A program made the position numbers and the translations under genes. Below are positions 13,612-64,000 of a stretch of DNA of 64,000 nt, in pieces. The notes under the pieces were generated by a model that worked only from the letters and a program-made list of their open reading frames with translations, was not told the origin of the DNA and ran no database searches. Within the stretch, counting starts at the first letter, position 1; each line of letters starts with the position of its first letter. Origin of the DNA: Panorpa germanica (taxonomy: Eukaryota; Arthropoda; Insecta; Mecoptera; Panorpidae); contig OY783208.1 in assembly GCA_963678705.1 (NCBI GenBank), positions 4,030,001-4,094,000 on the forward strand, in the 5' to 3' direction.

Positions 13612-14578
13612 TTATTCACATGAAAAAGAATTAACGGCTAAATGAGACTTTTTATGTCGTTTTAAATTACTTGACCATGAAAACGTTTTGTCACAAATGT
13701 CACATGAAAAAGGATTAACGTCAAAATGCGTCTTTTTATGTTCCTTTAAAGACCTTGAACTTGAAAACGTTTTGTTACAAATGTCACATGAAAAAGAATT
13801 AACGGCTAAATGAGACTTTTTATGTCGATTTAAATTACTTGACCATGAAAACGTTTTGTTACAAACGTCACATGAAAAAGGTTTAACGTCTAAATGCGTG
13901 TTTTTATGTTCCTTTAAAGACCTTGAACTTGAAAACGTTTTGTTACAAATGTCACATGAAAAAGGATTAACGTCTAAATGCGTGTTTTTATGTTCTTTTA
14001 AAGACCTTGAAGTTGAAAACGTCTTGTTACAAACGTCACATAAAAACGGACGCTCCCCGGTATGATTTCGTTGGTGAATAACTAAATTGAACCTACTAGT
14101 GTAGGATTTGTCACATTTATGACAGGAATATAACTTCCTGCCAGAGTGAACACGCAAATGTTTTATTATTTCCGGTGCCTTGTCAAACCCCATGTTACAA
14201 ACATCACAGATGAAATTCTTCTGATTGGAAATTAATTCTTCTATTTCCGATTGTCCACTGCCTTGTGGTTCCGAGAATCTTCTATTATCATCACTATCCA
14301 CCGGTTCCTCGGCAGTCCGACGCAGCCTCCAGATGCTCCTGCAATTTACAGGAATCTTGAAACACGCCTCCGCAATATTTACACAGGACAACAGGTGAAC
14401 TGATGTCAGGTTCATATTTAATATAAACCCCTGGCCAATCTGCTCCTCTATCGGAAGTGACGTCGACCTCCTCCTTGACTTGTGGTTCGAATTGAACAAT
14501 GCATTCCTCTTCTGGTTCTACTTTCATGTTTTCTATTTCCAGTGTTTCATTTAATTCTGATTTTATTTGCTGTGCCAT
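13612..14578 (-). pseudogene. ZNF-A2: C2H2 zinc-finger gene broken by a 17-bp deletion
   Basis: The MAQQIKSE start is at 14578, and the N-terminal acidic, psi-K-x-E-rich region and the degenerate first finger read normally. After DCRGTG the frame is lost. Compared with A1 and A4, 17 bp are missing between two gaaccgg copies (near 14296), so translation stops after 94 residues. The rest continues in another frame to 13612, with seven fingers including SRSLKEH and SWSSNLNRH types and the family end VNSFSCE. An intron is unlikely because the paralogs have no intron here and no GT-AG fits. An internal start at MGFDKAPE could still yield a short finger protein. Confidence 0.8.
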
Positions 14579-29115: not shown

Positions 29116-29212
29116 TTTCAACATTAAAACATAGGATTATTTAGCATAAAACTTAGAATTAGAACATAAAATTAGATTGATAAGCATAAAAACTTGCAAA
29201 TGTTTTATTCCA

Positions 29213-31037: not shown

Positions 31038-32333
31038 TTTATGCAGAAACCAACAATTTACTGAAACCAAAGGGTATTTATATTTAGCAATTAGTAACAC
31101 TAAGATTTAATTAAGCCTGCCCTAATTCACTCCTGAACAGGATTGTCTGTTTTCCTCTTCATTATGATTTTGTGAAACAGGCATACGGCTTCTTCATTTA
31201 ATGCCAGATAGAAATTTAATAAAAGGGGGCCCTTTGAAATAAACAACTTCTATAAAACTGTGCTATATTGTTTGTCACAAACAACAAAGACTAATGACCA
31301 ATTAACAAATATGTAATAAATTAAATTTCAAATAGTAAAGTACTTCATGAGTTTGTTGATTTCAAAAGAAGTTCAATAAGCAATGGACATTTTTCAGAAA
31401 ACATTGGAAGTGTTTTACAAGCAACATACATATTGCAGAATATTAAATTTATTAGAAAAGACTGAGTGAACAATATAACCTAGAAACCAAATTAGTAAAT
31501 GTAATCTTTAATAAATAAAATATTAATCGGAATTCTTAATAATTGTGACTATAGTTACAAAATGTATGTACAGAAATTGTAGTTATTCTTATTTTATTTT
31601 TTGTGTCGGTTGTAAGGTTTTATTTAATTTGTTAGGAATGAAAGGTCAATGGTAATTATTCAATACACCTACGTTTTCTTGTTTTGAAACTTGTAACAGA
31701 AATTTTGTATATTTCATCGAGCTATTAATCTACTTTTACCATTTTTAATAAAGAAATACACAATATTCATGCTTATTGTTGACCAATAATGTGAAATAAA
31801 CCCTTTTCACATCTAGATGACATATTGCTCTAACCACAAATTTGAAATTTCAACTTTAACCATTAATATTGAGTATTTCTAAAATAAAACTAGTTCGACA
31901 GAATGTGGACTAATTAAAATTGTTGTTTTTTATAACAATTAGAAATAAAAATTGTTTCTACTTCTTATTTTTTGACAAACTCACGTTGATCTTCCTTTAA
32001 AAGTAAATTCTATCGTCTGTCAATATGTAGGAATCCAGAAAAAAGTTCGTTGGTTTGTACTAATTGTTATCAAAGGCGCTACCCTTTTCAATATAATATT
32101 ATTAATTAATTAACTATACAAAAACTAGTAATAATAAAAGTATCTTTTTATATTAAAACGAATAATGTAAATACGGTTATAACATCCTTTGTCTTACATT
32201 AAATATATTATGATTATTAATAAAATTTTATTATATGTCAAAGTACAAACCATTAAAAAAGGCATCTTTAACTCCTGATGGTTTGCGTCTTTGGAACCTC
32301 ATGGCAAGTTAGCTACTGGTCTTCAAAATGTCT
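31038..32333. repeat. Upstream flank of ZNF-A3
   Basis: Closely matches 3208-4511 and 37815-39061. Contains the conserved UTR acceptor (ctttggtttcag read on the minus strand). No other gene is seen. Confidence 0.6.
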
Positions 32334-33439: not shown

Positions 33440-34213
33440 ATAACTCAATCGTAAGTTTTTATTACATTGTTTACACGAAAATATTTTTAACCCAAATGTA
33501 GGTTTGTGTGTCGTTTTAAACTTGATGCTTTACTAAACGTTTTTTTACATTGTTCACAAGAAAATAGCTTCAAACCTAAATGTGTGTTTATATGTCGTTT
33601 TAAATCAGTTGATTGACTAAATGATTTACCACATTTGTCACAAGAAAATGGTTTTAAACCTAAATGTATGTTTTTATGTCGTCTTAAATTATAAGCATCA
33701 CTAAATGTCTTATTACAAAGGTCGCAAAAATATAGTTTTATGCCTAAATGAGTGATTTTATGTCGTTTTAAACTTTGTGCGTTACTAAACGTTTTACTAC
33801 ATTGCTCGCAAAAAAGTGGATTTATACGTAAATGTCTTTTTATGCTGCTTTAAATGTGATAGGTTATCAAATATTTTATTACGTTCATTACAAGAATGCA
33901 TTTTCTTTGCTGAATGAATCCGCAAATGTTTTAAAATATCAGTGTTATTGTCAAACGATTTATTACAAACATCACAAATATAAGGCTTCTTTACTTCACT
34001 TTGTAGTTCTTCACAAATGGATGAAACAACAATTGGCTCATATTTCATAACATACTCATTTCCCAGTTGTAAAGTTGCATTTTCCTCAGTATCATGGTCT
34101 GGTTCTTCTTTAATTTCTATTTCTATTACATCACACAGTTCTGTTTCTTTGACGACGTCTTCCTTCTTTATTCCTATTTTGACAACTTGTCCTTTTACTG
34201 CTTCCATTGGCAT
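33440..34213 (-). pseudogene. ZNF-B2: decayed paralog of ZNF-B1
   Basis: It opens with MEAVKGQVVKIGIKKEDVV and the family block NEYVMKYEPI, then finger 1 (YICDVCNKSFDNN). Finger 2 reads CNER where the second zinc Cys should be. Two bases are then missing near 33834, so the frame ends at 33797 after 138 residues. In the shifted frame four good fingers follow, including CEQCSKTF, CDLCNKTF, CDKCGKSF and a final CEQCKKTF, ending with a stop near 33490. A further one-base loss there separates a short remnant of another finger. The flanks match those of B1, so this is a duplicate that died. Confidence 0.75.
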
Positions 34214-36920: not shown

Positions 36921-37814
36921 TCATGAAAGAGGATTAACGGCTAAATGCGTCTTTTTATGTCGTTTTAAACCACTTGACCATGAAAACGTTTTCTCACAAA
37001 TGTCACATGAAAAAGGATTAACGTCTAAATGCGTCTTTTTATGTTCCTTTAAAGACCTTGAACTTGAAAACTTTTTGTTACAAACGTCACATGAAAAATG
37101 ATTAACGTCTAAATGCGTCTTTTTATGTTCCTTTAAATACCTTGAACATGAAAACGTTTTGTTACATTTGTCACATGAAAAAGGATTAACGTCTAAGTGC
37201 GTCTTTTTATGTGTCTTTAAATAGCTTGAAGTTGAAAATGTTTTGTTACAAACGTCACACGAAAACGGACGCTCCCCGGTATGATTTCGTTGGTGAATAA
37301 TTAAATTGCACCTAGTAGTGTAGGATTTATCACATTCATGACAGGAATATAACTTCCTGTCAGAGTGAACACGCAAATGTTTTATTATTTCCGGTGCCTT
37401 ATCGAACCCCATGTTACAAACATCACAGATGAAATTCTTCTGATTGGAAATTAATTCTTCTATTCCCGATTGTCCACTGCCTTGTGGTTCCGAGAATCTT
37501 CTATTATCATCACCATCCACCGGTTCTTTTGTCCTTCCGGTTCCTCGGCAGTCCGACGGGGCCTCCAGGTGCTCCTGCAATTTACAGGAATCTTGAAACA
37601 CGCCTCCGCAATATTTACACAGGACAACAGGTGAACTATAGTCAGGTTCATATTTAATATGAACCTTTAGCCAATCTGCTACTCTATCGGAAGTGACGTC
37701 GACCTCCTCTTTGACTTGTGGTTCGAATTGAACAATGCATTCCTCTTCTGGTTCTACTTTCATGTTTTCTATTTCCAGTGTTTCATTTAACTCTGATTTT
37801 ATTTGCTGCGCCAT
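36921..37814 (-). CDS. ZNF-A4: C2H2 zinc-finger protein, 7 fingers, 297 aa
   Basis: It has the same N-terminus as A1, with psi-K-x-E motifs at IKSE, MKVE, VKEE and IKYE, then the degenerate CCHC-like finger, two ordinary fingers and an HTGERPF linker. Only four 28-residue fingers follow (helices STSSYLKTH, SCSRYLKEH, SSSRSLKEH, SWSSGLKRH), against 20 in A1. The last codons read NPLS and a stop: TGT of the family end SFSCE has become TGA, so two residues are missing, with no effect on zinc binding. The frame is intact. Its SCSRYLKEH finger type and LDVNH linker are those that dominate the giant array A6. Confidence 0.87.
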   Translation of the reverse strand: MAQQIKSELNETLEIENMKVEPEEECIVQFEPQVKEEVDVTSDRVADWLKVHIKYEPDYSSPVVLCKYCGGVFQDSCKLQEHLEAPSDCRGTGRTKEPVDGDDNRRFSEPQGSGQSGIEELISNQKNFICDVCNMGFDKAPEIIKHLRVHSDRKLYSCHECDKSYTTRCNLIIHQRNHTGERPFSCDVCNKTFSTSSYLKTHKKTHLDVNPFSCDKCNKTFSCSRYLKEHKKTHLDVNHFSCDVCNKKFSSSRSLKEHKKTHLDVNPFSCDICEKTFSWSSGLKRHKKTHLAVNPLS

Positions 37815-44093: not shown

Positions 44094-44795
44094 TTATTCA
44101 CATGAAAAAGAATTAACGGCTAAATGAGACTTTTTATGTCGTTTTAAAGTACTTGACCATGAAAACGTTTTTTCACAAATATCACATGAAAATGTATTAA
44201 CGTCTAAATGCGTCTTTTTATGTTTCTTTAAATAGCTTGAACTGGAAAACGTTTTGTTACAAATGTCACATGAAAAAGGATTAACGGCTAAATGCGTCTT
44301 ATTATGTTCCTTTATAGACCTTGAACTTGAAAACGTTTTGTTACAAATATCACATGAAAAAGGATTAACGTCTAAATGCGTCTTATTATGTTCCTTTATA
44401 GACCTTGAACTTGAAAACGTTTTGTTACAAATATCACATGAAAATGGTTTAACGTCTAAATGAGACTTTTTATGTTCCTTTAAATAATTTGAACTTGAAA
44501 ACGTTTTGTTACAGTTGTCACATGAAAAAGGATTAACGGCTAAATGAGACTTTTTATGTCGTTTTAAATTACTTGACCATGAAAACGTTTTCTCACAAAT
44601 GTCACATGAAAAAGGTTTAACGTCTAAATGCGTCATTTTATGTTCCTTTAAATAGCTTGACCTTGAAAATATTTTGTTACAAATGTCACATGAAAATGGA
44701 TTAACGTTTAAATGCGTCTTTTTATGTTCCTTTAAATAACTTGAGCTGGAAAATGTTTTGTTACAAACGTCACACGACAATGGACACAAGCCCAT
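44094..44795 (-). pseudogene. ZNF-A5: 5'-truncated zinc-finger gene, 8 fingers
   Basis: Eight fingers on a 28-residue period (helices SSSSYLKEH, SRSSYLKEH, SWSSNLKRH, SSSNYLKEH, two identical SSSRSIKEH, SSSSYLKKH, SWSSTLKRH), ending VNSFSCE and a stop. The acidic N-terminus, degenerate finger and ordinary fingers are absent. At about 44780 the finger sequence aatggaca passes directly into the MITE-type end ggacacaagcccatt that opens segment S2. The apparent first residues MGLCP come from the MITE end. A promoterless remnant is most likely. Confidence 0.8.
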
Positions 44796-46320
44796 TAAAA
44801 AAACGACCTCTTAAAAATGATTTCACGCCTATTCTATTGAATGAATTTTTTTTGAATCTGGCAGCACTATTTTTCATTTCTGATTGTGAACTGACGCATC
44901 AATGTCCATATTCAGTCGGTGTTGTATTTGTTTGACAGTTGTATGCGTTTATCGTTTTTAATTTTTATAATATGTTAGAATAATAATGTTTTAATAAGTG
45001 TTGTGAGTTCATTTTATATTTAAATCAATAATAAGTGTCAAACCGCATTAGTAAATATTATCTATTTTGTCGCATGTATAAATAAGCAAGGAAAATATTG
45101 TAAGTAATAGCTGAACGAAAAATAAAATTATTATAAAAAGCACAAGTTATATATGCAAGTAAGTTCATTTCTTTTATAATAAATATAACTTTAATTAGAA
45201 ATATTTAATAAATTTTCTAAATCAGTTCAGTTTACATATTTTCGTATGCTCATTTATTTGAGGTTAGCTTACTATAAAGTAGCTGTCATTTTTTGCTAAA
45301 GTATTTTATCAATTAAATTGTATTTTATAGTATAATCACTGATAACATTACAATTGATAATTTCATGATAAACTTACAAGAAAAGCCTTTTTGTTTAACA
45401 CTCATATTTAGTAATTAAAGTAAAAATTACTCTGTTGTTTTTCATGATTTTTTCATTGACCATAGTTATTTATTTATAAACTTACTAATGTAATGTTTCT
45501 AATATAAATCTACAGAACGTGGGTTTGCCTAAAAGGTCAAAAAAGAAGTAGTTGACCTTCTGGGGTCGGTATAAAGTCAGTTTAATGTACAAAAGTCATG
45601 TAGGGTGGGTTTGCCCCCAGCAGAAATAAGTTATATATGAAAACAGTATTAGAAATTAGATATATGGTTGAAGTTACGAGAGTTCGGCGGTGACTCATAT
45701 TCAAAACAAGTTGTGGGGTATAAACTGCTGATATAACTAAAAAGCACTGACTCATTTATTTTTCTATAATGTATATAGAAACGAATAAGACAAAATTCAT
45801 TATCGTATTATAAATTTATACCGCTCTTATAACCTCTTTTAAGTATAAGTCACCGCCGATCTACCGTGATTTTGACTATACATAAATATATAGTGCAGTA
45901 ATAGGAGAGATCACCTCATATAAAACAAATACTATGTATATCCATATAAGTTATATCAGGGTGTTTTATATGAGATGATTCCTTTATATATTACATAGAC
46001 AATATATCCTGGGAAAACTTAGTTTGACAAGGGTCTATTGTTCAGATCTATTTAATTTGTCTATTTAAACACCATTTTCCATTATTTTTATTTATTTACT
46101 AAACACAATACAAATTTACCAAATAATACTGGAGACTGATTAAATACTCGACGCTTTTGTTCGAGATCACACGCAAAACAGCAATTCCTTTAGAAGTTCC
46201 GACTTAGTATTGATACATTTTTATTTCATAGAAGAGGCATTATATATCGTAGTCGCTTTAAGGTATCTTTAATTGCATTTTTTATTTTCAGATTACTGTT
46301 TGATATTAACTTTAAAAGAA
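44796..46320 (+). promoter_or_regulatory. Upstream region of the second HTH gene copy
   Basis: Duplicate of 5647-7222. The first donor has changed from gtaagt to gcaagt (near 45157), the overlapping gtaagtt is kept, and the acceptor before the ATG (ttttattttcag) is intact. No coding exon. Confidence 0.4.
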
Positions 46321-46712
46321 ATGACTAACAGGAAAGAGAAAACGCAGTGTGTCTCATGGTTTATAGAGACAAAATCTGTTTCCCAGACTCAGTTAAATTA
46401 TAAAAGCATTTATGGGAAAGATCCACCATCAGAATCGCTGATTCTCAAGTGGCACAAAACTTTTGTAGAAGCAGGAACATTTGCAGATAAAGATGAATAA
46501 AAAATTGCAGATGAAAACGACGCAATTTGCACAGGTTGTTATAAATAAAAATAGTTGATTTTTTAAAATACAAATAACGTTTTTACTTTTATGTTTTAGA
46601 TATTAAACAGGAAATTATTACCGAGGATGCATGTTCTAGAGAGGATCAGGATGAATCACTGGATTCTCCTAACGCAGAAACATCTACAAGAATTAAAATT
46701 GAAGGTTTCTAA
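46321..46712 (+). pseudogene. Second HTH (DUF4817-like) gene copy with a premature stop
   Basis: Exons 46321-46534 and 46600-46712 correspond to 7223-7436 and 7502-7614. The HTH domain is intact (one E to D change, YGKDPPSES), but a TCA codon has become TAA at 46498-46500, ending the protein after 59 residues, before the splice junction. All acidic, psi-K-x-E-bearing tails are thereby lost. A short HTH-only peptide could still be made. Confidence 0.65.
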
Positions 46713-46807
46713 AATAAGATATCCTCTCATCCTAAAATAACACCTCAGGATTGAGATTTTTCAAACTTTGCCACTAGAAATGAAACTTTACTTGACATAT
46801 ATTATCA

Positions 46808-47441
46808 TCATGTGTCCTCATTTTTTAGTGGTCGATTTTTCAATTTTTGATTGAAATTGATGGTAATAAATGTGTATTGGCGTGTCTATTTTATTAAATA
46901 TCTAAATGTTGACGAAGATATAGCAATTAAAAGTTTTACTTGTAGTTTTAGCGCTAGAAATGGTCGGCCATATTTGTATGACGTGAAATGCATTTTAACG
47001 TCAGTTATTTGTTGAGTAGGTCAGTGCTGTGGTAATGTTTTGTAGCTGTTGGTAGTCGAATAATCAAGTCAAATTAAAGAATAATAAGTTTTTATTTTAT
47101 TTAACCCTGCTAAGGCGGACATAATATTGAAATTTGATTGTTCCTTGAAATAGCTGTAAATAATATTTGATATTTTGATATATAAATACATATAGCAGAG
47201 ATTTATGAGCTGTAAGATTGGTAACCTTACACAAGAATTGTGATGTCACATGCATTTGGAATGTGTACCACGTTGAATCCCTTTAATAATTAAAGAGACA
47301 AAATGACTTTTTTAATTATTAATATCTCTTAACATATAAGGAGTTATTAAAAAATATTTGGACATTTGAGGTTCTAGTAACCCACTTTATCAATATGTAG
47401 CACAGTTTTATAGAAATTAAGACATAGGACACAAGGCCATT
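46808..47441 (+). mobile_element. MITE copy of the AATGGGCT family
   Basis: Same insertion as 7726-8373, with the first bases of the left terminal repeat lost (atcatgtgtcctcat). Ends ggacacaaggccatt. Confidence 0.62.
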
Positions 47442-48070
47442 AAATTTCTATAAAAGTGCACTGTATGTTGATAAACTTGCCTATCAAAACCTCAAATATA
47501 CAATTATTTTTATTCAATTCGCAATATTATAGAAGTTATTAACGATTGAAATAATCATTGCTTCCTCACTACCTTTTACCATCACTTTTAAACAAGAGAA
47601 GTGCAAAAGAGATGCAGAATTAAACGTCAAAGCTATAGCAGCTGTTGCGTCGACCCATAATGTTTCAATATAATGTCGTGATGTAAAACGAAAAATAAAT
47701 AACATTATTTCAGGAATATTACGCAGAAAACTTTAAATAGATATATCTCCGTCAATTTTTGGATATTTAATCAAATAAAAACGACAATATACGTTTATTA
47801 ACTAATATTTCAATAAATAATTAAAATATCGATCCGTAAAAATGAGTTCACAACCCAGTTGTGCCAGTTATATTGCCTTTATCAAATTGAACTAACATGA
47901 AATTAAATATAAGTCATTTTCTACTTCCCATAAATATTTATTCTTCTTCTCTTGTCGACCACTATATTGTCAAGTTTGTTTCATTTTTAACTCCGTGGTT
48001 TTCTTTAGCATCTTAGCTATTAATATTTCTGTAGTTCTTTTAATTATAGTAGCACTGCCCTTTGTTTTAG

Positions 48071-48273
48071 AGCCCTCTGACGACGAAGATGTCAAAAATG
48101 ATTTGGTAGGTCAGTCTTCATATACTCAGGATGAAATACATTTATATCCAGTAGAGATTAAACAAGAAATCAAAATGGAAGATAATGCAGATGAATATTC
48201 AGAAGAGGCTGATATCAATAAGGATGACATTGCTGAGGACCAAGAAATAAGACAATTGGAAATATGTTCATAG
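48071..48273 (+). CDS. Second copy of the acidic alternative terminal exon
   Basis: Identical reading to 9002-9204 (PSDDEDVKND to QLEICS), same acceptor ctttgttttag ending at 48070. Being open after duplication is weak evidence of use because little divergence has accumulated. Confidence 0.35.
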
Positions 48274-48440
48274 TTTGCATTTCTTTTATAGTGAAGAGTC
48301 GCTATATTCAATAACAAATTTTAAATTTGTTGCACATTCTGTGATTAATTCTGTGATAAAAAAGGCTTGTGCACTATGAAAACTGTTCAATCCTATATTA
48401 TAAGTTCCAGGTGTATATTTATGATCTTATATTCTTATAT

Positions 48441-49684
48441 GTTTGGTACTGAATTTTGTATGGTAGCTCGAAAACGGCCCCAGGGAAGTTTTTGAAAATT
48501 TCCTATTTCGTAGAAAATTTTTTTAAGACTTTTGGCGTCTCCGTAATTTTCCCTGATTATCCTGGAAATCCGTAATTTTCGAAAAACTGGAAAAAAGTGG
48601 TCCCTTTTTTGCTGTATTATCTTTAATTCGTAAAAGATAGAAAGTTGAAATTTTGCATGTGTATTACGGTATTAAATGTGAATGTATTTCAAAATTTTAT
48701 AAAAGGGGCACCGTGAAAATTAGAGGGTCCGGTAGGAAACTTTGAAAAATAGCTCAAATTTTGAATTTTGTAATAATTGAATATCATATTAAAAAAAAAA
48801 TTATTTGGGGTCACGGCGGCAGTTTTTGACGAGGGTAAAAAATGTACTAGAAAGTTGAAATTTTGTATGTATTTTAATTTTGGTACCTCATTTACAAATC
48901 GAAAAAAAAAATTTTAAAAAAAGTTTGTCAAATATTTATTATTTGTATTTATATGCGAAATTTATATAGAACGAGTTTAATATTTCAATTCAAAAATGGA
49001 ATTAAAATTTGAAATGAAATTTAATTCAGATATAAAGGACAGTCGTCGCTTGCGACGGGGGTAAATTCTAGTATAGTGATACTTGCGTTCTTCTTAATGC
49101 GTGTGATCTGAATTCAACAAAATAATTCGTAATTTCATTTTCAAATTGAAATATTTAACTCGTTCTTTATTTAAATAATTTTTCATATAAACTGATTAAA
49201 AAAAAATATATTTTTTTTTTAATAATCATAATTTGAACAACTTTTTTTCATAATTTGGAATTTTTTTTTTGATTTGTAAAGTATGTATTCAGGTTAGCCT
49301 ATATACAAAATTTCAACTTTATAGCACAATTTTTACAGGCGGAAAAAATCGTCGCCGTGCTCCCAAACAAAATTTTGATTTTCTTTTTGTTAATAATATA
49401 TTACACAATCCAAAATATGAACTTTTTCCAAAGTTCCCTACGGGGCCCACTAATTTTCTTAACGCCCCCTTTTTCAATTTTCGAATAATGTTAGTATTGA
49501 CGACAAGTTATAGAGCAAAAAGGTGCCGTTGTTTTTTCCAGTTTTCCAAAAATTACGGAAAGTTTCCAGAAAATTCAAGGAAAAATTCGAAGACGCCAAA
49601 AGTCTTGAATTTTTTTCTCTACGAAATAGGAAATTTTCAAAATCAAGCCGTTTTCGAGCCACCATACAAAATTCAGTATCAAAC
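48441..49684. mobile_element. Second copy of the inverted Helitron-like dimer
   Basis: Hairpin and CTAG (49068-49071) are preserved at the centre. The arms are about 631 and 613 bp and differ from 9372-10615 by small indels. Confidence 0.52.
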
Positions 49685-49755
49685 ATATGAACAAGTCAAA
49701 GTTGGTTACCAGGACCTCAATGTCCATATATTTTTTAACAACTCCCTATATTTTC

Positions 49756-50312
49756 AATGGGCTTGTGTCCTCATTTTTTAGTGGTCGATTTTTCAATTGT
49801 TGATTGAAATTGATGTTAATAAATGTGTATTGGCGTGTCTACTTTATTAAATATCTAAATGTTGACGGAGATATAGCAATTAAAAGTTTGAATTGTAGTT
49901 TTAGTGCTATAAATGGTCGACCATATTTGTATGACAGTTATTTGTTGAGAATGTTTTGTAGCTGTTGATAGTCGAAATAATCAAGTCAAATCAAAGAATA
50001 ATAAGTTTTTATTTTATTTAACCCTGCTAAGGCAGACATAATATTGAAATTTGATTGTTTCTTGAAATAGCTGTAAATAATATTTGATATTTTGATATAT
50101 AAATACATATAGCAGAGATTTATGAGCTGTAAGGTTGGCAGCGGTTGTGATGTCACATGCACTTGGAATGTGTACAACGTTGAATCCCTTTAATAATTAA
50201 AGAGACAAAATGACTTTTTTAATTGTTAATATCTGCTAACATATAAGGAGTTATTAAAAAATATTTGGACATTTGAGGTTCTAGTAACCCACTTTATCAA
50301 TATGTAGTACAC
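49756..50312 (+). mobile_element. MITE copy of the AATGGGCT family, right end lost
   Basis: Starts aatgggcttgtgtcctcat; truncated exactly as 10687-11241. Confidence 0.6.
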
Positions 50313-50519
50313 GACTTTATTCAGTTCTATTTTAACGACACATAAACACAGTTGCTTTTGAGATTTTTAAATATTTAAAATGTTAAATTGTTAATGACGA
50401 TTTTCTACTATTGTTAGCAGTTTTTATAGTGCTGTGGCCTCATATATGTCGACTACATTACTGTCTAAATTGTTGCATATTAAGAGGTAATTAATTTTAT
50501 ATTTTGTTTTATATTTCAG

Positions 50520-50569
50520 GCGCAGCTGAGCAATACCGTTTTCCACTTGCTATTGTAGTAGAAAATTGA
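50520..50569 (+). CDS. Second copy of the short terminal exon
   Basis: Acceptor ttttatatttcag followed by the phase-1 reading GAAEQYRFPLAIVVEN and a TGA, as at 11451-11500. Unproven. Confidence 0.28.
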
Positions 50570-51859
50570 AAAGTCAAAGCTTTCTAAATTAAAAAACTAA
50601 ACTACCTAAAAACTAATTAAAACAATATTCAGTGTAATAACATTTTTGTAGCAACTTGTTTAAAATTACAACAAAAATAATTATATTTCATATTATAATT
50701 TATAGCACATAGCATTTATTACAATATATCGAACAACAAGCGTAAGATTATATAAACAAAATGAAAGAACAGGATAATATAACTGCAGGTAAATTAAAAT
50801 TTGTAAAATAAAGGAATGTAGTACTATGAAGACCGTAATCTTGTGAGTTTTGTACAAAATTTTAGGGCCCTAGAAATACCTACTTTATCAGCTGTTGAAA
50901 TAAAAATTAAAAAAGACATTGCAGCTCTACTAAGTGTTCTAGTAGATGCATTGAATTATTTGAAGGGGTTTCATTATAACCGTTGAATAATATTACAATC
51001 ATGATAATCCTGATTTTAAGATTTAAAGTGAAGCAGCCTACTTAATGTTTCAAGTCTGTTGACGACGGGGTGCCAAATTTCTACACTTTCTCTAGGATTA
51101 TATAAATAAAAGTAGCCCCTTTAAAACTTCAACAGTATTGAAATCAGTTTTCTGTATGATGTCGAAATTATCGAAATTAATAATATTTTTTCACAAAAAT
51201 CGCAATATAACATAAACTTGATGGAATGTACGACCCAGCTGTAAGTAGTAAATGACATAACACACACACTCTCGTATGCGTCTCTGTTGTATAAAACAGA
51301 CTTAATAAAAATAATTAGATATTTGAGGTTATGTTAGTCAACTTTATCAAAATATTGTGCAGTTTTATAGAAATGAAGACATGGCTCATCGAAAATACAC
51401 TGAAATAAGAAATATACAATTTATAACAATTTTAATTATTTATTTATTAAATTATATATTTATTAATCTTATAATATAAAACAAATTATTTATAATTAAA
51501 AACAAGATGAAGAGTTTCATATGGGTTCACCAGTTTGTTTTACACGCTATCCTAGTGCTTAATAGTGCATCATTCCCAGATACTGTTTTAATTTTATTTT
51601 TAGTGTTAAGCCTCATTGCCACTCACTGTTTTTATTTAATAATTTAATCTAAATTTCAGGTTAGGCATTCCTTATCACATTCGTGTTTTAATTTGAGGTT
51701 ATTTAATTTAGTTGGTGCGCATGCGTCGTTAGTAATATAAATTTTGACAGTTCGATAGAATGTGGAATAATTAAAATTGCTGTTTTTTATAACAATTAGT
51801 AATAGAAATTGTTTTCACTTGTTCATTTTTGAAAACAGACATTGAATTTTATATTATGA
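50570..51859. repeat. Non-coding block shared with S1
   Basis: Matches 11501-12798. No gene seen. Confidence 0.6.
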
Positions 51860-52535
51860 CTAGAGTTTACCCCCGTCCCAAAGCGACGTCTTCCTAGTGT
51901 GTATAGTTTAAATTCAATAAAATAATTCGTAATTTCATTTCAAATTTTAATTCCATTTTTAAATTGAAATATTTAACTCGTTGTATAATCATTTTACATA
52001 TAACAACAAATAATTTTTCACACAAACTGACAAAGAAAATTACATTTTTTTGACTAAATATAAAATATTTTCAATTTATTCGTCATTTGACCTTTTTTTT
52101 CAAAATTTAAGATTTTCTTTTTCGGTTTGTAAATTAGGTGCCAAAGTTAGCACATAAACAAAATTTTAACTTTCTAGCACAATTTTTACCTTTTTGAGCA
52201 AAAACCGCCTCCGTGCCCCAAAATATATTTTTTTAATTTTGAATATGATATTTAGTTATTACACAGTCCAAAATTTGAGCTTTCTCCATAGTTCCCTACC
52301 GTGCCCCCCAATTTTCTGGACGCCCCTTTTATTAATTTTTGAGTTTTTATATTTTAAAATATGATTGCATTGAATAGCGTAATACACAGGCAAAATTACA
52401 ACTTTCTACCTTTTACGGATTAAAAGTGATGTAGCAAAAAGAAACCATTTCTTTTCGCAGTTTTTTCAAAATTATAGGTTTCCAGGAAATTGAGACAAGG
52501 ATTCATGAAACCGTTTTCGAGCCATCATACAAAAA
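51860..52535 (-). mobile_element. Helitron-like element
   Basis: CTAG at 51860-51863, with the spacer and a weakened hairpin (gcgac against gtccc arms); otherwise as 12799-13505. It follows the stop of ZNF-A6. Confidence 0.52.
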
Positions 52536-52673: not shown

Positions 52674-55600
52674 TCATGAAAAAGAATTAACGGCTAAATG
52701 AGACTTTTTATGTCGTTTTAAAGCACTTGACCTTGAAAACGTTTTCTCACAAATGTCACATGAAAAAGGTTTAACGTCTAAATGCGTCTTTTTATGTTCC
52801 TTTAAAGACCTTGAACTTGAAAACGTTTTGTTACAAATGTCACATGAAAAATGATTAACGTCTAAATGCGTCTTTTTATGTTCCTTTAAATACCTTGAAC
52901 ATGAAAACGTTTTGTTACAAATGTCACATGAAAAAGGATTAACGTCTAAATGCGTCTTTTTATGTTCCTTTAAAGACCTTGAACTTGAAAACGTTTTGTT
53001 ACAAATGTCACATGAAAAAGGATTAACGTCTAAATGCGTCTTTTTATGTTCCTTTAAATACCTTGAACATGAAAACGTTTTGTTACAAATGTCACATGAA
53101 AAATGATTAACGTCTAAATGCGTCTTTTTATGTTCCTTTAAATACCTTGAACATGAAAACGTTTTGTTACAAATGTCACATGAAAAAGGATTAACGTCTA
53201 AATGCGTCTTTTTATGTTCCTTTAAAGACCTTGAACTTGAAAACGTTTTGTTACAAATGTCACATGAAAAAGGATTAACGTCTAAATGCGTCTTTTTATG
53301 TTCCTTTAAAGACCTTGAACTTGAAAACGTTTTGTTACAAATGTCACATGAAAAAGGATTAACGTCTAAATGCGTCTTTTTATGTTCCTTTAAATACCTT
53401 GAACATGAAAACGTTTTGTTACAAATGTCACATGAAAAAGGATTAACGTCTAAATGCGTCTTTTTATGTTCCTTTAAAGACCTTGAACTTGAAAACGTTT
53501 TGTTACAAATGTCACATGAAAAAGGTTTAACGTCTAAATGCGTCTTTTTATGTTCCTTTAAAGACCTTGAACATGAAAACGTTTTGTTACAAATGTCACA
53601 TGAAAAAGGATTAACGTCTAAATGCGTCTTTTTATGTTCCTTTAAATACCTTGAACATGAAAACGTTTTGTTACAAATGTCACATGAAAAAGGATTAACG
53701 TCTAAATGCGTCTTTTTATGTCGACTTAAAGTACTTGACCATGAAAACGTTTTTTTACAAATGTCACATGAAAAATGATTAACGTCTAAATGCGTCTTTT
53801 TATGTTCCTTTAAATACCTTGAACATGAAAACGTTTTGTTACAAATGTCACATGAAAAATGATTAACGTCTAAATGCGTCTTTTTATGTTCCTTTAAATA
53901 CCTTGAACATGAAAACGTTTTGTTACAAATGTCACATGAAAAAGGATTAACGTCTAAATGCGTCTTTTTATGTTCCTTTAAATACCTTGAACATGAAAAC
54001 GTTTTGTTACAAATGTCACATGAAAAAGGATTAACGTCTAAATGCGTCTTTTTATGTTCCTTTAAATACCTTGAACATGAAAACGTTTTGTTACAAATGT
54101 CACATGAAAAATGATTAACGTCTAAATGCGTCTTTTTATGTTCCTTTAAATACCTTGAACATGAAAACGTTTTGTTACAAATGTCACATGAAAAAGGATT
54201 AACGTCTAAATGCGTCTTTTTATGTCGACTTAAAGTACTTGACCATGAAAACGTTTTTTTACAAATGTCACATGAAAAATGATTAACGTCTAAATGCGTC
54301 TTTTTATGTTCCTTTAAATACCTTGAACATGAAAACGTTTTGTTACAAATGTCACATGAAAAATGATTAACGTCTAAATGCGTCTTTTTATGTTCCTTTA
54401 AATACCTTGAACATGAAAACGTTTTGTTACAAATGTCACATGAAAAAGGATTAACGTCTAAATGCGTCTTTTTATGTTCCTTTAAATACCTTGAACATGA
54501 AAACGTTTTGTTACAAATGTCACATGAAAAAGGATTAACGTCTAAATGCGTCTTTTTATGTTCCTTTAAATACCTTGAACATGAAAACGTTTTTTTACAA
54601 ATGTCACATGAAAAAGGATTAACGTCTAAATGCGTCTTTTTATGTTCCTTTAAATACCTTGAACATGAAAACGTTTTGTTACAAATGTCACATGAAAAAG
54701 GATTAACGTCTAAATGCGTCTTTTTATGTCGACTTAAAGTACTTGACCATGAAAACGTTTTTTTACAAATGTCACATGAAAAATGATTAACGTCTAAATG
54801 CGTCTTTTTATGTTCCTTTAAATACCTTGAACATGAAAACGTTTTGTTACAAATGTCACATGAAAAATGATTAACGTCTAAATGCGTCTTTTTATGTTCC
54901 TTTAAATACCTTGAACATGAAAACGTTTTGTTACAAATGTCACATGAAAAAGGATTAACGTCTAAATGCGTCTTTTTATGTTCCTTTAAATACCTTGAAC
55001 ATGAAAACGTTTTGTTACAAATGTCACATGAAAAAGGATTAACGTCTAAATGCGTCTTTTTATGTTCCTTTAAATACCTTGAACATGAAAACGTTTTGTT
55101 ACAAATGTCACATGAAAAAGGATTAACGTCTAAATGCGTCTTTTTATGTTCCTTTAAATACCTTGAACATGAAAACGTTTTGTTACAAATGTCACATGAA
55201 AAAGGATTAACGTCTAAATGCGTCTTTTTATGTTCCTTTAAATACCTTGAACATGAAAACGTTTTGTTACAAATGTCACATGAAAAAGGATTAACGTCTA
55301 AATGCGTCTTTTTATGTTCCTTTAAATACCTTGAACATGAAAACGTTTTGTTACAAATGTCACATGAAAAAGGATTAACGTCTAAATGCGTCTTTTTATG
55401 TTCCTTTAAATACCTTGAACATGAAAACGTTTTGTTACAAATGTCACATGAAAAAGGATTAACGTCTAAATGCGTCTTTTTATGTCGACTTAAAGTACTT
55501 GACCATGAAAACGTTTTTTTACAAATGTCACATGAAAAATGATTAACGTCTAAATGCGTCTTTTTATGTTCCTTTAAATACCTTGAACATGAAAACGTTT

Positions 55601-58600
55601 TGTTACAAATATCACATGAAAAAGGATTAACGTCTAAATGCGTCTTTTTATGTCGACTTAAAGTACTTGACCATGAAAACGTTTTTTTACAAATGTCACA
55701 TGAAAAATGATTAACGTCTAAATGCGTCTTTTTATGTTCCTTTAAATACCTTGAACATGAAAACGTTTTGTTACAAATGTCACATGAAAAATGATTAACG
55801 TCTAAATGCGTCTTTTTATGTTCCTTTAAATACCTTGAACATGAAAACGTTTTGTTACAAATGTCACATGAAAAAGGATTAACGTCTAAATGCGTCTTTT
55901 TATGTTCCTTTAAATACCTTGAACATGAAAACGTTTTGTTACAAATGTCACATGAAAAAGGATTAACGTCTAAATGCGTCTTTTTATGTTCCTTTAAATA
56001 CCTTGAACATGAAAACGTTTTGTTACAAATGTCACATGAAAAAGGATTAACGTCTAAATGCGTCTTTTTATGTTCCTTTAAATACCTTGAACATGAAAAC
56101 GTTTTGTTACAAATGTCACATGAAAAAGGATTAACGTCTAAATGCGTCTTTTTATGTTCCTTTAAATACCTTGAACATGAAAACGTTTTGTTACAAATGT
56201 CACATGAAAAAGGATTAACGTCTAAATGCGTCTTTTTATGTTCCTTTAAATACCTTGAACATGAAAACGTTTTGTTACAAATGTCACATGAAAAAGGATT
56301 AACGTCTAAATGCGTCTTTTTATGTTCCTTTAAATACCTTGAACATGAAAACGTTTTGTTACAAATGTCACATGAAAAAGGATTAACGTCTAAATGCGTC
56401 TTTTTATGTTCCTTTAAATACCTTGAACATGAAAACGTTTTGTTACAAATGTCACATGAAAAAGGATTAACGTCTAAATGCGTCTTTTTATGTTCCTTTA
56501 AATACCTTGAACATGAAAACGTTTTGTTACAAATGTCACATGAAAAAGGATTAACGTCTAAATGCGTCTTTTTATGTTCCTTTAAATACCTTGAACATGA
56601 AAACGTTTTGTTACAAATGTCACATGAAAAAGGATTAACGTCTAAATGCGTCTTTTTATGTTCCTTTAAATACCTTGAACATGAAAACGTTTTGTTACAA
56701 ATGTCACATGAAAAAGGATTAACGTCTAAATGCGTCTTTTTATGTTCCTTTAAATACCTTGAACATGAAAACGTTTTGTTACAAATGTCACATGAAAAAG
56801 GATTAACGTCTAAATGCGTCTTTTTATGTTCCTTTAAATACCTTGAACATGAAAACGTTTTGTTACAAATGTCACATGAAAAAGGATTAACGTCTAAATG
56901 CGTCTTTTTATGTCGACTTAAAGTACTTGACCATGAAAACGTTTTTTTACAAATGTCACATGAAAAATGATTAACGTCTAAATGCGTCTTTTTATGTTCC
57001 TTTAAATACCTTGAACATGAAAACGTTTTGTTACAAATGTCACATGAAAAATGATTAACGTCTAAATGCGTCTTTTTATGTTCCTTTAAATACCTTGAAC
57101 ATGAAAACGTTTTGTTACAAATGTCACATGAAAAAGGATTAACGTCTAAATGCGTCTTTTTATGTTCCTTTAAATACCTTGAACATGAAAACGTTTTGTT
57201 ACAAATGTCACATGAAAAAGGATTAACGTCTAAATGCGTCTTTTTATGTTCCTTTAAATACCTTGAACATGAAAACGTTTTGTTACAAATGTCACATGAA
57301 AAAGGATTAACGTCTAAATGCGTCTTTTTATGTTCCTTTAAATACCTTGAACATGAAAACGTTTTGTTACAAATGTCACATGAAAAAGGATTAACGTCTA
57401 AATGCGTCTTTTTATGTTCCTTTAAATACCTTGAACATGAAAACGTTTTGTTACAAATGTCACATGAAAAAGGATTAACGTCTAAATGCGTCTTTTTATG
57501 TTCCTTTAAATACCTTGAACATGAAAACGTTTTGTTACAAATGTCACATGAAAAAGGATTAACGTCTAAATGCGTCTTTTTATGTTCCTTTAAATACCTT
57601 GAACATGAAAACGTTTTGTTACAAATGTCACATGAAAAAGGATTAACGTCTAAATGCGTCTTTTTATGTTCCTTTAAATACCTTGAACATGAAAACGTTT
57701 TGTTACAAATGTCACATGAAAAAGGATTAACGTCTAAATGCGTCTTTTTATGTCGACTTAAAGTACTTGACCATGAAAACGTTTTTTTACAAATGTCACA
57801 TGAAAAAGGATTAACGTCTAAATGCGTCTTTTTATGTTCCTTTAAATACCTTGAACATGAAAACGTTTTGTTACAAATGTCACATGAAAAAGGATTAACG
57901 TCTAAATGCGTCTTTTTATGTCGACTTAAAGTACTTGACCATGAAAACGTTTTTTTACAAATGTCACATGAAAAAGGATTAACGTCTAAATGCGTCTTTT
58001 TATGTCGACTTAAAGTACTTGACCATGAAAACGTTTTTTTACAAATGTCACATGAAAAAGGATTAACGTCTAAATGCGTCTTTTTATGTCGACTTAAAGT
58101 ACTTGACCATGAAAACGTTTTTTTACAAATGTCACATGAAAAATGATTAACGTCTAAATGCGTCTTTTTATGTCGACTTAAAGTACTTGACCATGAAAAC
58201 GTTTTTTTACAAATGTCACATGAAAAATGATTAACGTCTAAATGCGTCTTTTTATGTTCCTTTAAATACCTTGAACATGAAAACGTTTTTTTACAAATGT
58301 CACATGAAAAATGATTAACGTCTAAATGCGTCTTTTTATGTTCCTTTAAATACCTTGAACATGAAAACGTTTTGTTACAAATGTCACATGAAAAAGGATT
58401 AACGTCTAAATGCGTCTTTTTATGTCGACTTAAAGTACTTGACCATGAAAACGTTTTGTTACAAATGTCACATGAAAAAGGATTAACGTCTAAATGCGTC
58501 TTTTTATGTCGACTTAAAGTACTTGACCATGAAAACGTTTTGTTACAAATGTCACATGAAAAAGGATTAACGTCTAAATGCGTCTTTTTATGTCGACTTA

Positions 58601-61600
58601 AAGTACTTGACCATGAAAACGTTTTTTTACAAATGTCACATGAAAAATGATTAACGTCTAAATGCGTCTTTTTATGTTCCTTTAAATACCTTGAACATGA
58701 AAACGTTTTGTTACAAATGTCACATGAAAAAGGATTAACGTCTAAATGCGTCTTTTTATGTTCTTTTAAATACCTTGAACATGAAAACGTTTTGTTACAA
58801 ATGTCACATGAAAAAGGATTAACGTCTAAATGCGTCTTTTTATGTCGACTTAAAGTACTTGACCATGAAAACGTTTTTTTACAAATGTCACATGAAAAAG
58901 GATTAACGTCTAAATGCGTCTTTTTATGTCGACTTAAAGTACTTGACCATGAAAACGTTTTTTTACAAATGTCACATGAAAAATGATTAACGTCTAAATG
59001 CGTCTTTTTATGTCGACTTAAAGTACTTGACCATGAAAACGTTTTTTTACAAATGTCACATGAAAAATGATTAACGTCTAAATGCGTCTTTTTATGTTCC
59101 TTTAAATACCTTGAACATGAAAACGTTTTTTTACAAATGTCACATGAAAAATGATTAACGTCTAAATGCGTCTTTTTATGTTCCTTTAAATACCTTGAAC
59201 ATGAAAACGTTTTGTTACAAATGTCACATGAAAAAGGATTAACGTCTAAATGCGTCTTTTTATGTCGACTTAAAGTACTTGACCATGAAAACGTTTTGTT
59301 ACAAATGTCACATGAAAAAGGATTAACGTCTAAATGCGTCTTTTTATGTCGACTTAAAGTACTTGACCATGAAAACGTTTTGTTACAAATGTCACATGAA
59401 AAAGGATTAACGTCTAAATGCGTCTTTTTATGTCGACTTAAAGTACTTGACCATGAAAACGTTTTTTTACAAATGTCACATGAAAAATGATTAACGTCTA
59501 AATGCGTCTTTTTATGTTCCTTTAAATACCTTGAACATGAAAACGTTTTGTTACAAATGTCACATGAAAAAGGATTAACGTCTAAATGCGTCTTTTTATG
59601 TCGACTTAAAGTACTTGACCATGAAAACATTTTTTTACAAATGTCACATGAAAAATGATTAACGTCTAAATGCGTCTTTTTATGTTCCTTTAAATACCTT
59701 GAACATGAAAACGTTTTGTTACAAATGTCACATGAAAAAGGATTAACGTCTAAATGCGTCTTTTTATGTCGACTTAAAGTACTTGACCATGAAAACGTTT
59801 TTTTACAAATGTCACATGAAAAATGATTAACGTCTAAATGCGTCTTTTTATGTTCCTTTAAATACCTTGAACATGAAAACGTTTTGTTACAAATGTCACA
59901 TGAAAAAGGATTAACGTCTAAATGCGTCTTTTTATGTCGACTTAAAGTACTTGACCATGAAAACGTTTTGTTACAAATGTCACATGAAAAAGGATTAACG
60001 TCTAAATGCGTCTTTTTATGTCGACTTAAAGTACTTGACCATGAAAACGTTTTTTTACAAATGTCACATGAAAAATGATTAACGTCTAAATGCGTCTTTT
60101 TATGTTCCTTTAAATACCTTGAACATGAAAACGTTTTGTTACAAATGTCACATGAAAAAGGATTAACGTCTAAATGCGTCTTTTTATGTCGACTTAAAGT
60201 ACTTGACCATGAAAACATTTTTTTACAAATGTCACATGAAAAATGATTAACGTCTAAATGCGTCTTTTTATGTTCCTTTAAATACCTTGAACATGAAAAC
60301 GTTTTGTTACAAATGTCACATGAAAAAGGATTAACGTCTAAATGCGTCTTTTTATGATCCTTTAAATACCTTGAACATGAAAACGTTTTGTTACAAATGT
60401 CACATGAAAAAGGATTAACGTCTAAATGCGTCTTTTTATGTCGACTTAAAGTACTTGACCATGAAAACGTTTTTTTACAAATGTCACATGAAAAAGGATT
60501 AACGTCTAAATGCGTCTTTTTATGTTCCTTTAAATACCTTGAACATGAAAACGTTTTGTTACAAATGTCACATGAAAAAGGATTAACGTCTAAATGCGTC
60601 TTTTTATGATCCTTTAAATACCTTGAACATGAAAACGTTTTGTTACAAATGTCACATGAAAAAGGATTAACGTCTAAATGCGTCTTTTTATGATCCTTTA
60701 AATACCTTGAACATGAAAACGTTTTTTTACAAATGTCACATGAAAAATGATTAACGTCTAAATGCGTCTTTTTATGTTCCTTTAAATACCTTGACCATGA
60801 AAACGTTTTGTTACAAATGTCACATGAAAAAGGATTAACGTCTAAATGCGTCTTTTTATGTTCCTTTAAATACCTTGACCATGAAAACGTTTTGTTACAA
60901 ATGTCACATGAAAAAGGATTAACGTCTAAATGCGTCTTTTTATGATCCTTTAAATACCTTGAACATGAAAACGTTTTTTTACAAATGTCACATGAAAAAG
61001 GATTAACGTCTAAATGCGTCTTTTTATGATCCTTTAAATACCTTGACCATGAAAACGTTTTTTTACAAATGTCACATGAAAAATGATTAACGTCTAAATG
61101 CGTCTTTTTATGTTCCTTTAAATACCTTGAACATGAAAACGTTTTGTTACAAATGTCACATGAAAAAGGATTAACGTCTAAATGCGTCTTTTTATGATCC
61201 TTTAAATACCTTGAACATGAAAACGTTTTGTTACAAATGTCACATGAAAAAGGATTAACGTCTAAATGCGTCTTTTTATGTTCCTTTAAATACCTTGAAC
61301 ATGAAAACGTTTTGTTACAAATGTCACATGAAAAAGGATTAACGTCTAAATGCGTCTTTTTATGTCGACTTAAAGTACTTGACCATGAAAACGTTTTTTT
61401 ACAAATGTCACATGAAAAATGATTAACGTCTAAATGCGTCTTTTTATGTTCCTTTAAATACCTTGAACATGAAAACGTTTTGTTACAAATGTCACATGAA
61501 AAAGGATTAACGTCTAAATGCGTCTTTTTATGTCGACTTAAAGTACTTGACCATGAAAACATTTTTTTACAAATGTCACATGAAAAATGATTAACGTCTA

Positions 61601-64000
61601 AATGCGTCTTTTTATGTTCCTTTAAATACCTTGAACATGAAAACGTTTTGTTACAAATGTCACATGAAAAAGGATTAACGTCTAAATGCGTCTTTTTATG
61701 TCGACTTAAAGTACTTGACCATGAAAACGTTTTTTTACAAATGTCACATGAAAAAGGATTAACGTCTAAATGCGTCTTTTTATGTTCCTTTAAATACCTT
61801 GAACATGAAAACGTTTTGTTACAAATGTCACATGAAAAAGGATTAACGTCTAAATGCGTCTTTTTATGTCGACTTAAAGTACTTGACCATGAAAACGTTT
61901 TTTTACAAATGTCACATGAAAAATGATTAACGTCTAAATGCGTCTTTTTATGTTCCTTTAAATACCTTGAACATGAAAACGTTTTGTTACAAATGTCACA
62001 TGAAAAAGGATTAACGTCTAAATGCGTCTTTTTATGTCGACTTAAAGTACTTGACCATGAAAACGTTTTTTTACAAATGTCACATGAAAAAGGATTAACG
62101 TCTAAATGCGTCTTTTTATGTTCCTTTAAATACCTTGAACATGAAAACGTTTTGTTACAAATGTCACATGAAAAAGGATTAACGTCTAAATGCGTCTTTT
62201 TATGTCGACTTAAAGTACTTGACCATGAAAACGTTTTTTTACAAATGTCACATGAAAAAGGATTAACGTCTAAATGCGTCTTTTTATGTCGACTTAAAGT
62301 ACTTGACCATGAAAACGTTTTTTTACAAATGTCACATGAAAAATGATTAACGTCTAAATGCGTCTTTTTATGTCGACTTAAAGTACTTGACCATGAAAAC
62401 GTTTTTTTACAAATGTCACATGAAAAATGATTAACGTCTAAATGCGTCTTTTTATGTTCCTTTAAATACCTTGAACATGAAAACGTTTTTTTACAAATGT
62501 CACATGAAAAATGATTAACGTCTAAATGCGTCTTTTTATGTTCCTTTAAATACCTTGAACATGAAAACGTTTTGTTACAAATGTCACATGAAAAAGGATT
62601 AACGTCTAAATGCGTCTTTTTATGTCGACTTAAAGTACTTGACCATGAAAACGTTTTGTTACAAATGTCACATGAAAAAGGATTAACGTCTAAATGCGTC
62701 TTTTTATGTCGACTTAAAGTACTTGACCATGAAAACGTTTTGTTACAAATGTCACATGAAAAAGGATTAACGTCTAAATGCGTCTTTTTATGTCGACTTA
62801 AAGTACTTGACCATGAAAACGTTTTTTTACAAATGTCACATGAAAAATGATTAACGTCTAAATGCGTCTTTTTATGTTCCTTTAAATACCTTGAACATGA
62901 AAACGTTTTGTTACAAATGTCACATGAAAAAGGATTAACGTCTAAATGCGTCTTTTTATGTCGACTTAAAGTACTTGACCATGAAAACATTTTTTTACAA
63001 ATGTCACATGAAAAATGATTAACGTCTAAATGCGTCTTTTTATGTTCCTTTAAATACCTTGAACATGAAAACGTTTTGTTACAAATGTCACATGAAAAAG
63101 GATTAACGTCTAAATGCGTCTTTTTATGTCGACTTAAAGTACTTGACCATGAAAACGTTTTTTTACAAATGTCACATGAAAAAGGATTAACGTCTAAATG
63201 CGTCTTTTTATGTTCCTTTAAATACCTTGAACATGAAAACGTTTTGTTACAAATGTCACATGAAAAATGATTAACGTCTTAAATGCGTCTTTTTATGTTC
63301 CTTTAAATACCTTGAACATGAAAACGTTTTTTTACAAATGTCACATGAAAAATGATTAACGTCTAAATGCGTCTTTTTATGTTCCTTTAAATACCTTGAA
63401 CATGAAAACGTTTTGTTACAAATGTCACATGAAAAAGGATTAACGTCTAAATGCGTCTTTTTATGTCGACTTAAAGTACTTGACCATGAAAACGTTTTGT
63501 TACAAATGTCACATGAAAAAGGATTAACGTCTAAATGCGTCTTTTTATGTCGACTTAAAGTACTTGACCATGAAAACGTTTTGTTACAAATGTCACATGA
63601 AAAAGGATTAACGTCTAAATGCGTCTTTTTATGTCGACTTAAAGTACTTGACCATGAAAACGTTTTTTTACAAATGTCACATGAAAAATGATTAACGTCT
63701 AAATGCGTCTTTTTATGTTCCTTTAAATACCTTGAACATGAAAACGTTTTGTTACAAATGTCACATGAAAAAGGATTAACGTCTAAATGCGTCTTTTTAT
63801 GTCGACTTAAAGTACTTGACCATGAAAACATTTTTTTACAAATGTCACATGAAAAATGATTAACGTCTAAATGCGTCTTTTTATGTTCCTTTAAATACCT
63901 TGAACATGAAAACGTTTTGTTACAAATGTCACATGAAAAAGGATTAACGTCTAAATGCGTCTTTTTATGTCGACTTAAAGTACTTGACCATGAAAACGTT
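52674..64000 (-). CDS. ZNF-A6: giant zinc-finger array, about 134 fingers in window, 5' end outside
   Basis: From the stop at 52674 one frame is open to about 63280, over 3500 codons, made almost only of 28-residue C2H2 fingers. Three helices dominate: SCSRYLKEH, SWSSTLSRH and, near the C-terminus, SSSRSLKEH. Linkers are LDVNP or LDVNH instead of TGEKP. The last finger (SRSSALKRH, LAVNSFS) is the family end, with TGT changed to TGA as in A4. Near 63279 one extra T (gtcttaaatg for gtctaaatg) shifts the frame, so reading from upstream ends HLRR and a stop at 63271. Either the gene is truncated or the base is an assembly error. By analogy with A1-A4 an acidic MAQQ N-terminus should lie beyond 64000. 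No intron or other domain is visible. Confidence 0.8.
52684..64000 (-). repeat. Coding satellite of 84-bp units, about 134 copies in window
   Basis: The whole stretch is a head-to-tail array of 84-bp units, differing mainly at four switches: helix type (ttcctttaaataccttgaac or cgacttaaagtacttgacc), N or K after the second Cys (gttacaaat or tttacaaat), P or H in the linker (aaaggatta or aaatgatta), and a rare K-M change (aaaacat). Twelve consecutive units around 55852-56886 appear identical. Apart from the single extra T near 63279 all spacing is a multiple of 84. Confidence 0.93.
57961..64000 (-). repeat. Higher-order repeats of ten units (840 bp) within the array
   Basis: The module covering 58372-58650 recurs at 59212-59490, 62572-62850 and 63413-63691. 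The offsets are 840 bp between neighbours (841 where the extra T lies) and 4200 bp between pairs. The rare aaaacat variant occurs near 59629, 60219, 61560, 62989 and 63829. Earlier in the array (53700-57800) the W-type finger plus two LDVNH units bound runs of identical LDVNP units of varying length. Confidence 0.8.

Follow-up and report, generated by a model that had tools for sequence, protein, structure and literature searches.

Is an array of more than a hundred near-uniform zinc fingers a working gene, the fresh remains of one or a product of assembly? The question is raised by a 64,000-nucleotide stretch of the genome of the mecopteran insect Panorpa germanica (assembly GCA_963678705.1, contig OY783208.1, positions 4,030,001 to 4,094,000 of the forward strand), which we call the window and number from its first base. 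On its minus strand, from 52,674 to the window edge at 64,000, 84-bp C2H2 zinc-finger units follow one another as 134 complete copies and one partial copy. We consider it likely that this giant array belongs to one gene of a tandemly duplicated poly-zinc-finger cluster, and that it ballooned very recently, by unequal exchange, from the 4–20 family fingers of its neighbours to at least 134.

Extent and reading frame of the array

52674..64000, minus strand: 84-bp C2H2 array, 134 complete units and a 67-base partial unit (Tandem Repeats Finder, unit scan, edge-unit match)
52674..63278, minus strand: uninterrupted frame that holds 126 fingers and closes with the stop codon of the gene (unit scan, list of open reading frames)
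63275..63285, minus strand: single 85-bp unit with an extra base; the 8 upstream fingers lie in the other frame (unit scan)
52674..52760, minus strand: last, diverged finger, ending ..KSHLAVNSFS-stop (unit scan, comparison with neighbours)
46267..52495, no strand assigned: flank on the 3′ side of the giant array, present as a second copy at 7,169–13,428 (alignment)

Tandem Repeats Finder places the array at 52,675–64,000 (period 84, 134.8 copies, 95% matches, 0% indels), and in the unit scan the pattern CxxC-x12-HxxxH fits all 134 complete units, gap-free across the array, each unit being one 28-residue finger. Compared with a B-type unit, the 67 bases of the partial copy at the edge show 0 mismatches, so the array continues beyond the window. 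An earlier note on this DNA, made from the letters alone, had counted about 134 fingers and more than 11 kb of 84-bp units running past the window edge, and both statements agree with these results. The repeat structure itself excludes a chance origin. Two recognition helices account for 119 of the 134 units (76 with CSRYLKE and 43 with WSSTLSR), and the array holds 19 distinct units if its one extra base is set aside. The fingers are joined by five residues, LDVNP or LDVNH; the usual C2H2 linker is TGEKP.

The spacing between units is 84 bp in 132 of 133 cases and 85 bp in the remaining one. The extra base, near 63,280, sits in a motif found once, as against 133 copies without it, and splits the array into 8 upstream fingers in one frame and 126 downstream fingers in another. 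The downstream frame stays open for 10.6 kb, from 63,278 as far as the terminal stop at 52,674–52,676. Thus, the note's single frame open for more than 10 kb holds for 126 fingers but not for the first 8, and the predicted product of more than 3,500 residues would be interrupted by a frameshift some 8.5 units inside the window edge. The listed open reading frame (52,674–62,990; 3,438 amino acids, 404 kDa, isoelectric point 9.24) starts at an ATG that we rejected as the start of the gene, because it is codon 7 of a finger, a Thr-to-Met (KKMF) variant; the true start codon therefore lies outside the window. An antisense gene was also rejected, since the one antisense frame that is open in the commonest unit is closed in the His-type units. 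Openness alone is weak evidence for a gene, the antisense of the commonest unit being open too.

Growth and age of the array

Among the 12 longest exact repeats within the array are disjoint copies, the longest of 1,059 bp, that lie 10, 11, 15, 17, 26, 40 and 50 units apart, and runs of one identical unit are also present. Block copies at whole-unit offsets, together with single-unit runs, are what repeated rounds of unequal exchange in blocks would be expected to leave. The 3′ end of the array retains older finger types resembling those of the neighbours, as expected if exchange works mainly inside the array. A comparable block duplication is found in A22, an intact neighbour (listed below), where a block of several fingers is repeated and the order SSLSYLKE, SSSRSLKE, NSTSLKE is present three times; the same growth process has thus acted in an intact gene. 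We propose that the array would have started at the size of its close neighbours' arrays, with 4–20 family fingers, and would have grown by unequal exchange between register-aligned 84-bp units, both as multi-finger blocks and as single-unit runs. Because 84 bp is 28 codons, each such exchange would add whole fingers and leave the frame unbroken. The note had likewise attributed the length to exchange that keeps the 84-bp register, an idea well supported by the multi-unit exact copies at whole-unit offsets and by the presence of only 19 distinct units. A simple periodic higher-order repeat was considered and rejected, the identity of helix types at lags of 1–30 units (first 122 units) being 0.38–0.60 versus 0.465 at random.

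The variants within the array indicate when it grew. The 133 core units (the diverged last unit left out) contain 16 minor base variants, and 15 of these recur at the corresponding position in one or more of 53 neighbour fingers. The neighbour fingers show 81 of 252 possible variants, which gives this overlap a hypergeometric P of 1.8e-7, linked variants being treated as independent. Seemingly new changes amount to one shared variant unseen in the neighbours (6 units), two private substitutions and one private insertion; both private substitutions are synonymous, and both bases occur in neighbours and hence are counted among the 15. Variants that nearly all pre-exist in the neighbours, and only 19 distinct units, point to very recent growth by copying old fingers in register.

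The duplicated 3′ flank gives a measure of this age. An alignment of 6,209 bases between the flank at 46,267–52,495 and its duplicate at 7,169–13,428, which is the 3′ flank of a neighbour labelled B7, shows 168 substitutions and 16 indels. Private changes in 11.2 kb of array are 2 substitutions and 1 insertion, versus 168 substitutions in 6.2 kb of the duplicated flanks. By arithmetic, 2 private substitutions per 133 × 84 bases correspond to about 1% of the per-lineage flank divergence; gene conversion would lead to an underestimate of the age of the array. The giant array and B7, which have this flank in common, are thus more than tenfold apart in their number of fingers.

The length of the array or the order of its units could instead be partly the work of the assembler, through false expansion or collapse, with the extra base as a consensus error. 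Near-identical units are hard to assemble, and an indel such as the single private one is a typical error of long-read consensus. A false duplication would, however, give a perfect copy of many kilobases, and the longest disjoint exact repeat is far from that length; the 3′ end grades into older, neighbour-like finger types, and block duplication is seen independently in A22. We regard such an assembly artefact as unlikely. The extra base itself is unique to one unit. The two copies of the block in which it lies lack it in their corresponding units (17 and 57), so it either postdates the latest block duplication or reflects an error in the sequence. It is either an assembly consensus error or a very fresh disabling mutation.

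Constraint and selection

Is the array under selection as a coding sequence? The evidence is mixed, and present-day constraint was not demonstrated by stops, by the Cys/His codons or by synonymous counts. Several points weigh against regarding the array as a gene of the cluster. In the whole array, 2 of 23 distinct base changes are synonymous, versus 5.2 expected (P = 0.07). The stop-free frame was rejected as proof of constraint, because 22% of 20,000 draws of 23 random single changes were also stop-free (P = 0.22; with 15 changes, P = 0.39). The Cys/His codons show no variation in the array, which by arithmetic would arise by chance in about 8% of cases with 16 core variants. The proportion of extra amino-acid types to extra synonymous types did not differ between contact codons and other codons (Fisher P = 0.30). 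Finally, a frameshift of a single base lies inside the array, the start codon and N-terminus of the giant gene lie beyond the window, and three of the five close neighbours are broken.

A young array has had little time to acquire new mutations, stops among them, and with so few changes freedom from stops needs no constraint. The note had supposed that homogenisation purges stops faster than they spread; with 23 changes, and more than a fifth of random draws stop-free, no such purging is needed. The same figures bear on a rival reading, in which a gene-derived array lost its translation as one protein, grew as an unselected, satellite-like sequence and took the insertion among its first disabling hits. 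This reading gains from the single frameshift near the 5′ side, from the broken neighbours, from the frequency of stop-free draws and from the fact that exchange alone explains the length of the array. It is opposed by the fact that the 126 downstream and 8 upstream fingers are each open, by the synonymous nature of both private substitutions (n = 2) and by the restriction of the insertion to one unit, which makes it very recent or a sequence error. We judge a fresh relic of this kind to be quite possible, if short of probable.

Past selection has probably left a clearer trace. Among the 19 distinct units of the array, the ratio of nonsynonymous to synonymous differences (pN/pS) was 19.5 at the contact codons (helix positions −1, 2, 3 and 6), 1.3 at other helix positions and 0.83 in the rest of the finger; the linker had no synonymous difference and hence no ratio. 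For the neighbours, the values were 2.1 at contacts, 0.94 at other helix positions, 0.54 in the rest and 0.58 in the linker, computed from the 43 distinct members of a set of 52 fingers (the variant comparison above used 53). Of 67 extra amino-acid types, 25 fall at contact codons, a share that 2 of 20,475 four-codon sets reach. These values suggest that the finger family has likely undergone diversifying selection on its DNA contacts in the past. The outcome of a comparison of units in the manner of dN/dS (nonsynonymous against synonymous substitution rates), which the note had proposed as a test for constraint on Cys and His codons, is thus mixed.

Two further measures proved unsuitable. A shortage of indels is uninformative, since the flank ratio of 16:168 predicts about 2 indels per 23 changes and 1 was seen. 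Conservation of Cys and His in the neighbour fingers is circular, these fingers having been selected by an intact CxxC/HxxxH pattern; a looser listing that allowed one lost ligand yielded one case, in a distant relative, where Tyr replaces the second His (position 26,276).

The surrounding cluster and known zinc-finger systems

The finger pattern has 207 matches on the minus strand of the window and 0 on the plus strand. Around the array lie at least seven shorter relatives, duplicated, some intact and some broken. In the labels of the five close neighbours the digits are pattern finger counts; family fingers were listed separately (A22, 20; B7, 5; C16, 14; D6, 4; E8, 8).

961..3207, minus strand: A22, intact, 748 amino acids; N-terminal region, 2 diverged fingers, then 20 family fingers (list of open reading frames, translation)
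13612..14499, minus strand: B7, broken; 2 diverged and 5 family fingers, frame lost through a 17-base deletion in the N-terminal part
29191..31100, minus strand: C16, broken; common N-terminus and 14 listed family fingers; the frame changes between 29,978 and 29,809, and the unit at 29,725 contains a stop
36921..37814, minus strand: D6, intact, 297 amino acids; 2 diverged and 4 family fingers
44094..44795, minus strand: E8, broken; 8 fingers without the shared N-terminus, the upstream DNA matching 5,623–7,099 instead
25869..26663, minus strand: more distant relative, 6 intact fingers by pattern
33457..33976, minus strand: more distant relative with 5 pattern-matched fingers split between two frames

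Individual fingers tie the array to these genes. The D6 finger at 37,175 is 2 bases away from the giant array's His-type unit, and neighbour fingers at 13,704 and 44,186 share the ending of the array's last finger, with 4 base differences each. An N-terminus beginning MAQQIKSELNE... is common to A22 (2600–3207), C16 (30430–31100) and D6 (37210–37814). In A22 and D6 it lies in one open reading frame with the fingers, and a likely splice acceptor, read by eye, precedes the ATG by about 25 bases in these intact neighbours. The missing 5′ end of the giant gene presumably bears the same N-terminus. Translations of A22, C16 and D6 each contain four psi-K-x-E motifs in this region, which we take to be of the SUMO type. 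The first 90 residues of A22 hold 4 such motifs, whereas shuffles average 0.23 and 0 of 20,000 reach four, the motif having been picked after the sequence was seen. Against Pfam, the A22 N-terminus gave nothing except one weak zinc-finger match. Neither KRAB nor a PR/SET methyltransferase domain is among the Pfam matches of six neighbour open reading frames and the A22 N-terminus, the giant's own N-terminus lying beyond the window.

Other elements lie among the finger genes. A BEL/Pao-type long terminal repeat (LTR) retrotransposon at 15591–23355, upstream of B7, is a very young insertion: its two 776-bp LTRs have 1 base different, and a 4-bp target duplication was seen by eye. Its open reading frame (16,647–21,596; 1,649 amino acids) has Pfam matches to protease, reverse transcriptase, RNase H, integrase and DUF1759. 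An insert at 42227–43849, between the 3′ flank and E8, is richer in G+C, has 20-bp inverted ends and a 177-codon open stretch, and is probably a decayed DNA transposon. Copies of a dispersed repeat family, about 0.4–0.6 kb long, are scattered between the finger genes in both orientations:

5177–5649, 7733–8376, 10698–11242, 27302–27934, 32333–33261, 34972–35345, 39531–40095, 46811–47444, 49767–50312: dispersed repeat copies

The G+C content is 28–30% across most of the window; this composition, the BEL/Pao element and the family resemblance described below point to an insect as the probable source. An Rfam scan of the window gave 0 matches at gathering scores, and an exact 55-base core of the array unit had 0 matches in bacterial and archaeal genome contigs and 0 in viral contigs.

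What would a product of the giant array look like? Its last 1,108 amino acids match Pfam PF00096 (E = 2.2e-99) and PF13465 (E = 8.3e-185), and in a structure model of the last 195 residues a helix starts every 28 residues (mean predicted local distance difference test score, pLDDT, 69; predicted template-modelling score, pTM, 0.21). Matches in the PDB by sequence and by fold search include ZFP568, CTCF and PRDM9; query template-modelling (TM) scores are near 0.2, owing to the extended chain, so the support is limited to the single-finger fold. The model fits an ordinary C2H2 finger fold for the array units.

The closest described kind, by its features, is the ZF271-like or APEZ proteins of Hemiptera. 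The genes of the window resemble them in their long rows of C2H2 fingers joined by five-residue linkers, and in forming tandem clusters some of whose members are disrupted. A further mark of those proteins is the lack of KRAB or another domain; here this is seen in the neighbours, the A22 N-terminus giving only a weak finger match and the giant's own N-terminus lying beyond the window. The available text of PMC6444547 describes Oncopeltus (milkweed bug) proteins with 3–45 repeats, in tandem clusters of 4–8 genes with probable pseudogenes, and proposes ZF271-like genes as repressive DNA binders lacking KRAB; the array here differs in having at least 134 fingers, 19 distinct units and the linker LDVNP. 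By analogy, the product, if made, would be a nuclear DNA-binding repressor of this kind, perhaps recruiting repression via SUMO.

Other systems are more distant. PRDM9, called a coding minisatellite in the available portion of PMC3890296, shares tandem coding finger units of changing copy number, with variation mostly nonsynonymous at contact codons, but has 8–17 fingers in sequenced mice and its own methyltransferase domain, missing from the neighbours' matches here. Vertebrate poly-zinc-finger and KRAB-ZNF genes share tandem clusters, contact-residue diversification and the gain and loss of fingers, but many carry KRAB, SCAN or BTB, none of which was found in the neighbours. Human poly-zinc-finger genes have a mean of 8.5 fingers, some at least 30, according to PMC2604467, which saw no positive selection in the fly and mosquito expansions that it covered. 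Satellite DNA, which is non-coding, shares a long, tandem, homogenised array; the array here has an open frame save for one insertion and may or may not be translated. A literature search, whose scope did not extend to annotated proteins in sequence databases, found, by phrase, no paper on proteins with at least 100 fingers, none that combined finger numbers of 36–40 with one another or with ZNF91, and none combining aphid genomes, tandem arrays and unequal crossing; for APEZ it gave PMC6444547 alone; the available portions of PMC10547256 and PMC12513265 gave no finger number per protein. The novelty lies in the size and youth of the array, its kind being already known.

The size could itself be functional. 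In this reading, a working protein with 134 or more fingers, amounting to about 3,900 residues once the neighbours' N-terminus is added, would be selected for length and would bind a long, repeated DNA target; with three bases per finger, 134 fingers would by arithmetic span about 400 bp if every finger engaged. The concentration of two helix types in 119 of 134 fingers, the greater variability of the contact residues and the C-terminal end in common with the neighbours speak for it; the frameshift and the start codon beyond the window speak against it, as does the youth of the array, given which its length need not be selected. Some tandem fingers also stalled ribosomes and triggered mRNA decay in reporters in zebrafish embryos, and in human cells some fragments caused stalling with no clear effect on decay, in the available portions of PMC11620358; by analogy, long finger arrays may carry a cost through ribosome stalling. 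A working, length-selected giant seems doubtful to us. Its boldest form, judged from sequence features, is improbable: a functional protein of at least 134 near-uniform fingers would read a two-letter helix alphabet along at least 400 bp of repeated DNA, such as a satellite, with length itself as the evolving trait, so that a satellite which is coding would recognise another satellite.

A working gene and a fresh relic are both plausible readings, the frameshift leaving production of the giant protein in doubt. The locus also carries a caution: taken on its own, a 10-kb open frame built of young repeats is no evidence of a gene. In the recent expansion that we favour, the array is a protein-coding repeat observed shortly after a phase of runaway growth, next to siblings, some intact and some broken, with 4–20 family fingers, and its duplicated flank supplies a clock for that growth. 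Thus, the locus makes testable the rate at which finger arrays grow, selection on their length, and how ribosome and nucleus handle a product of more than 100 fingers.

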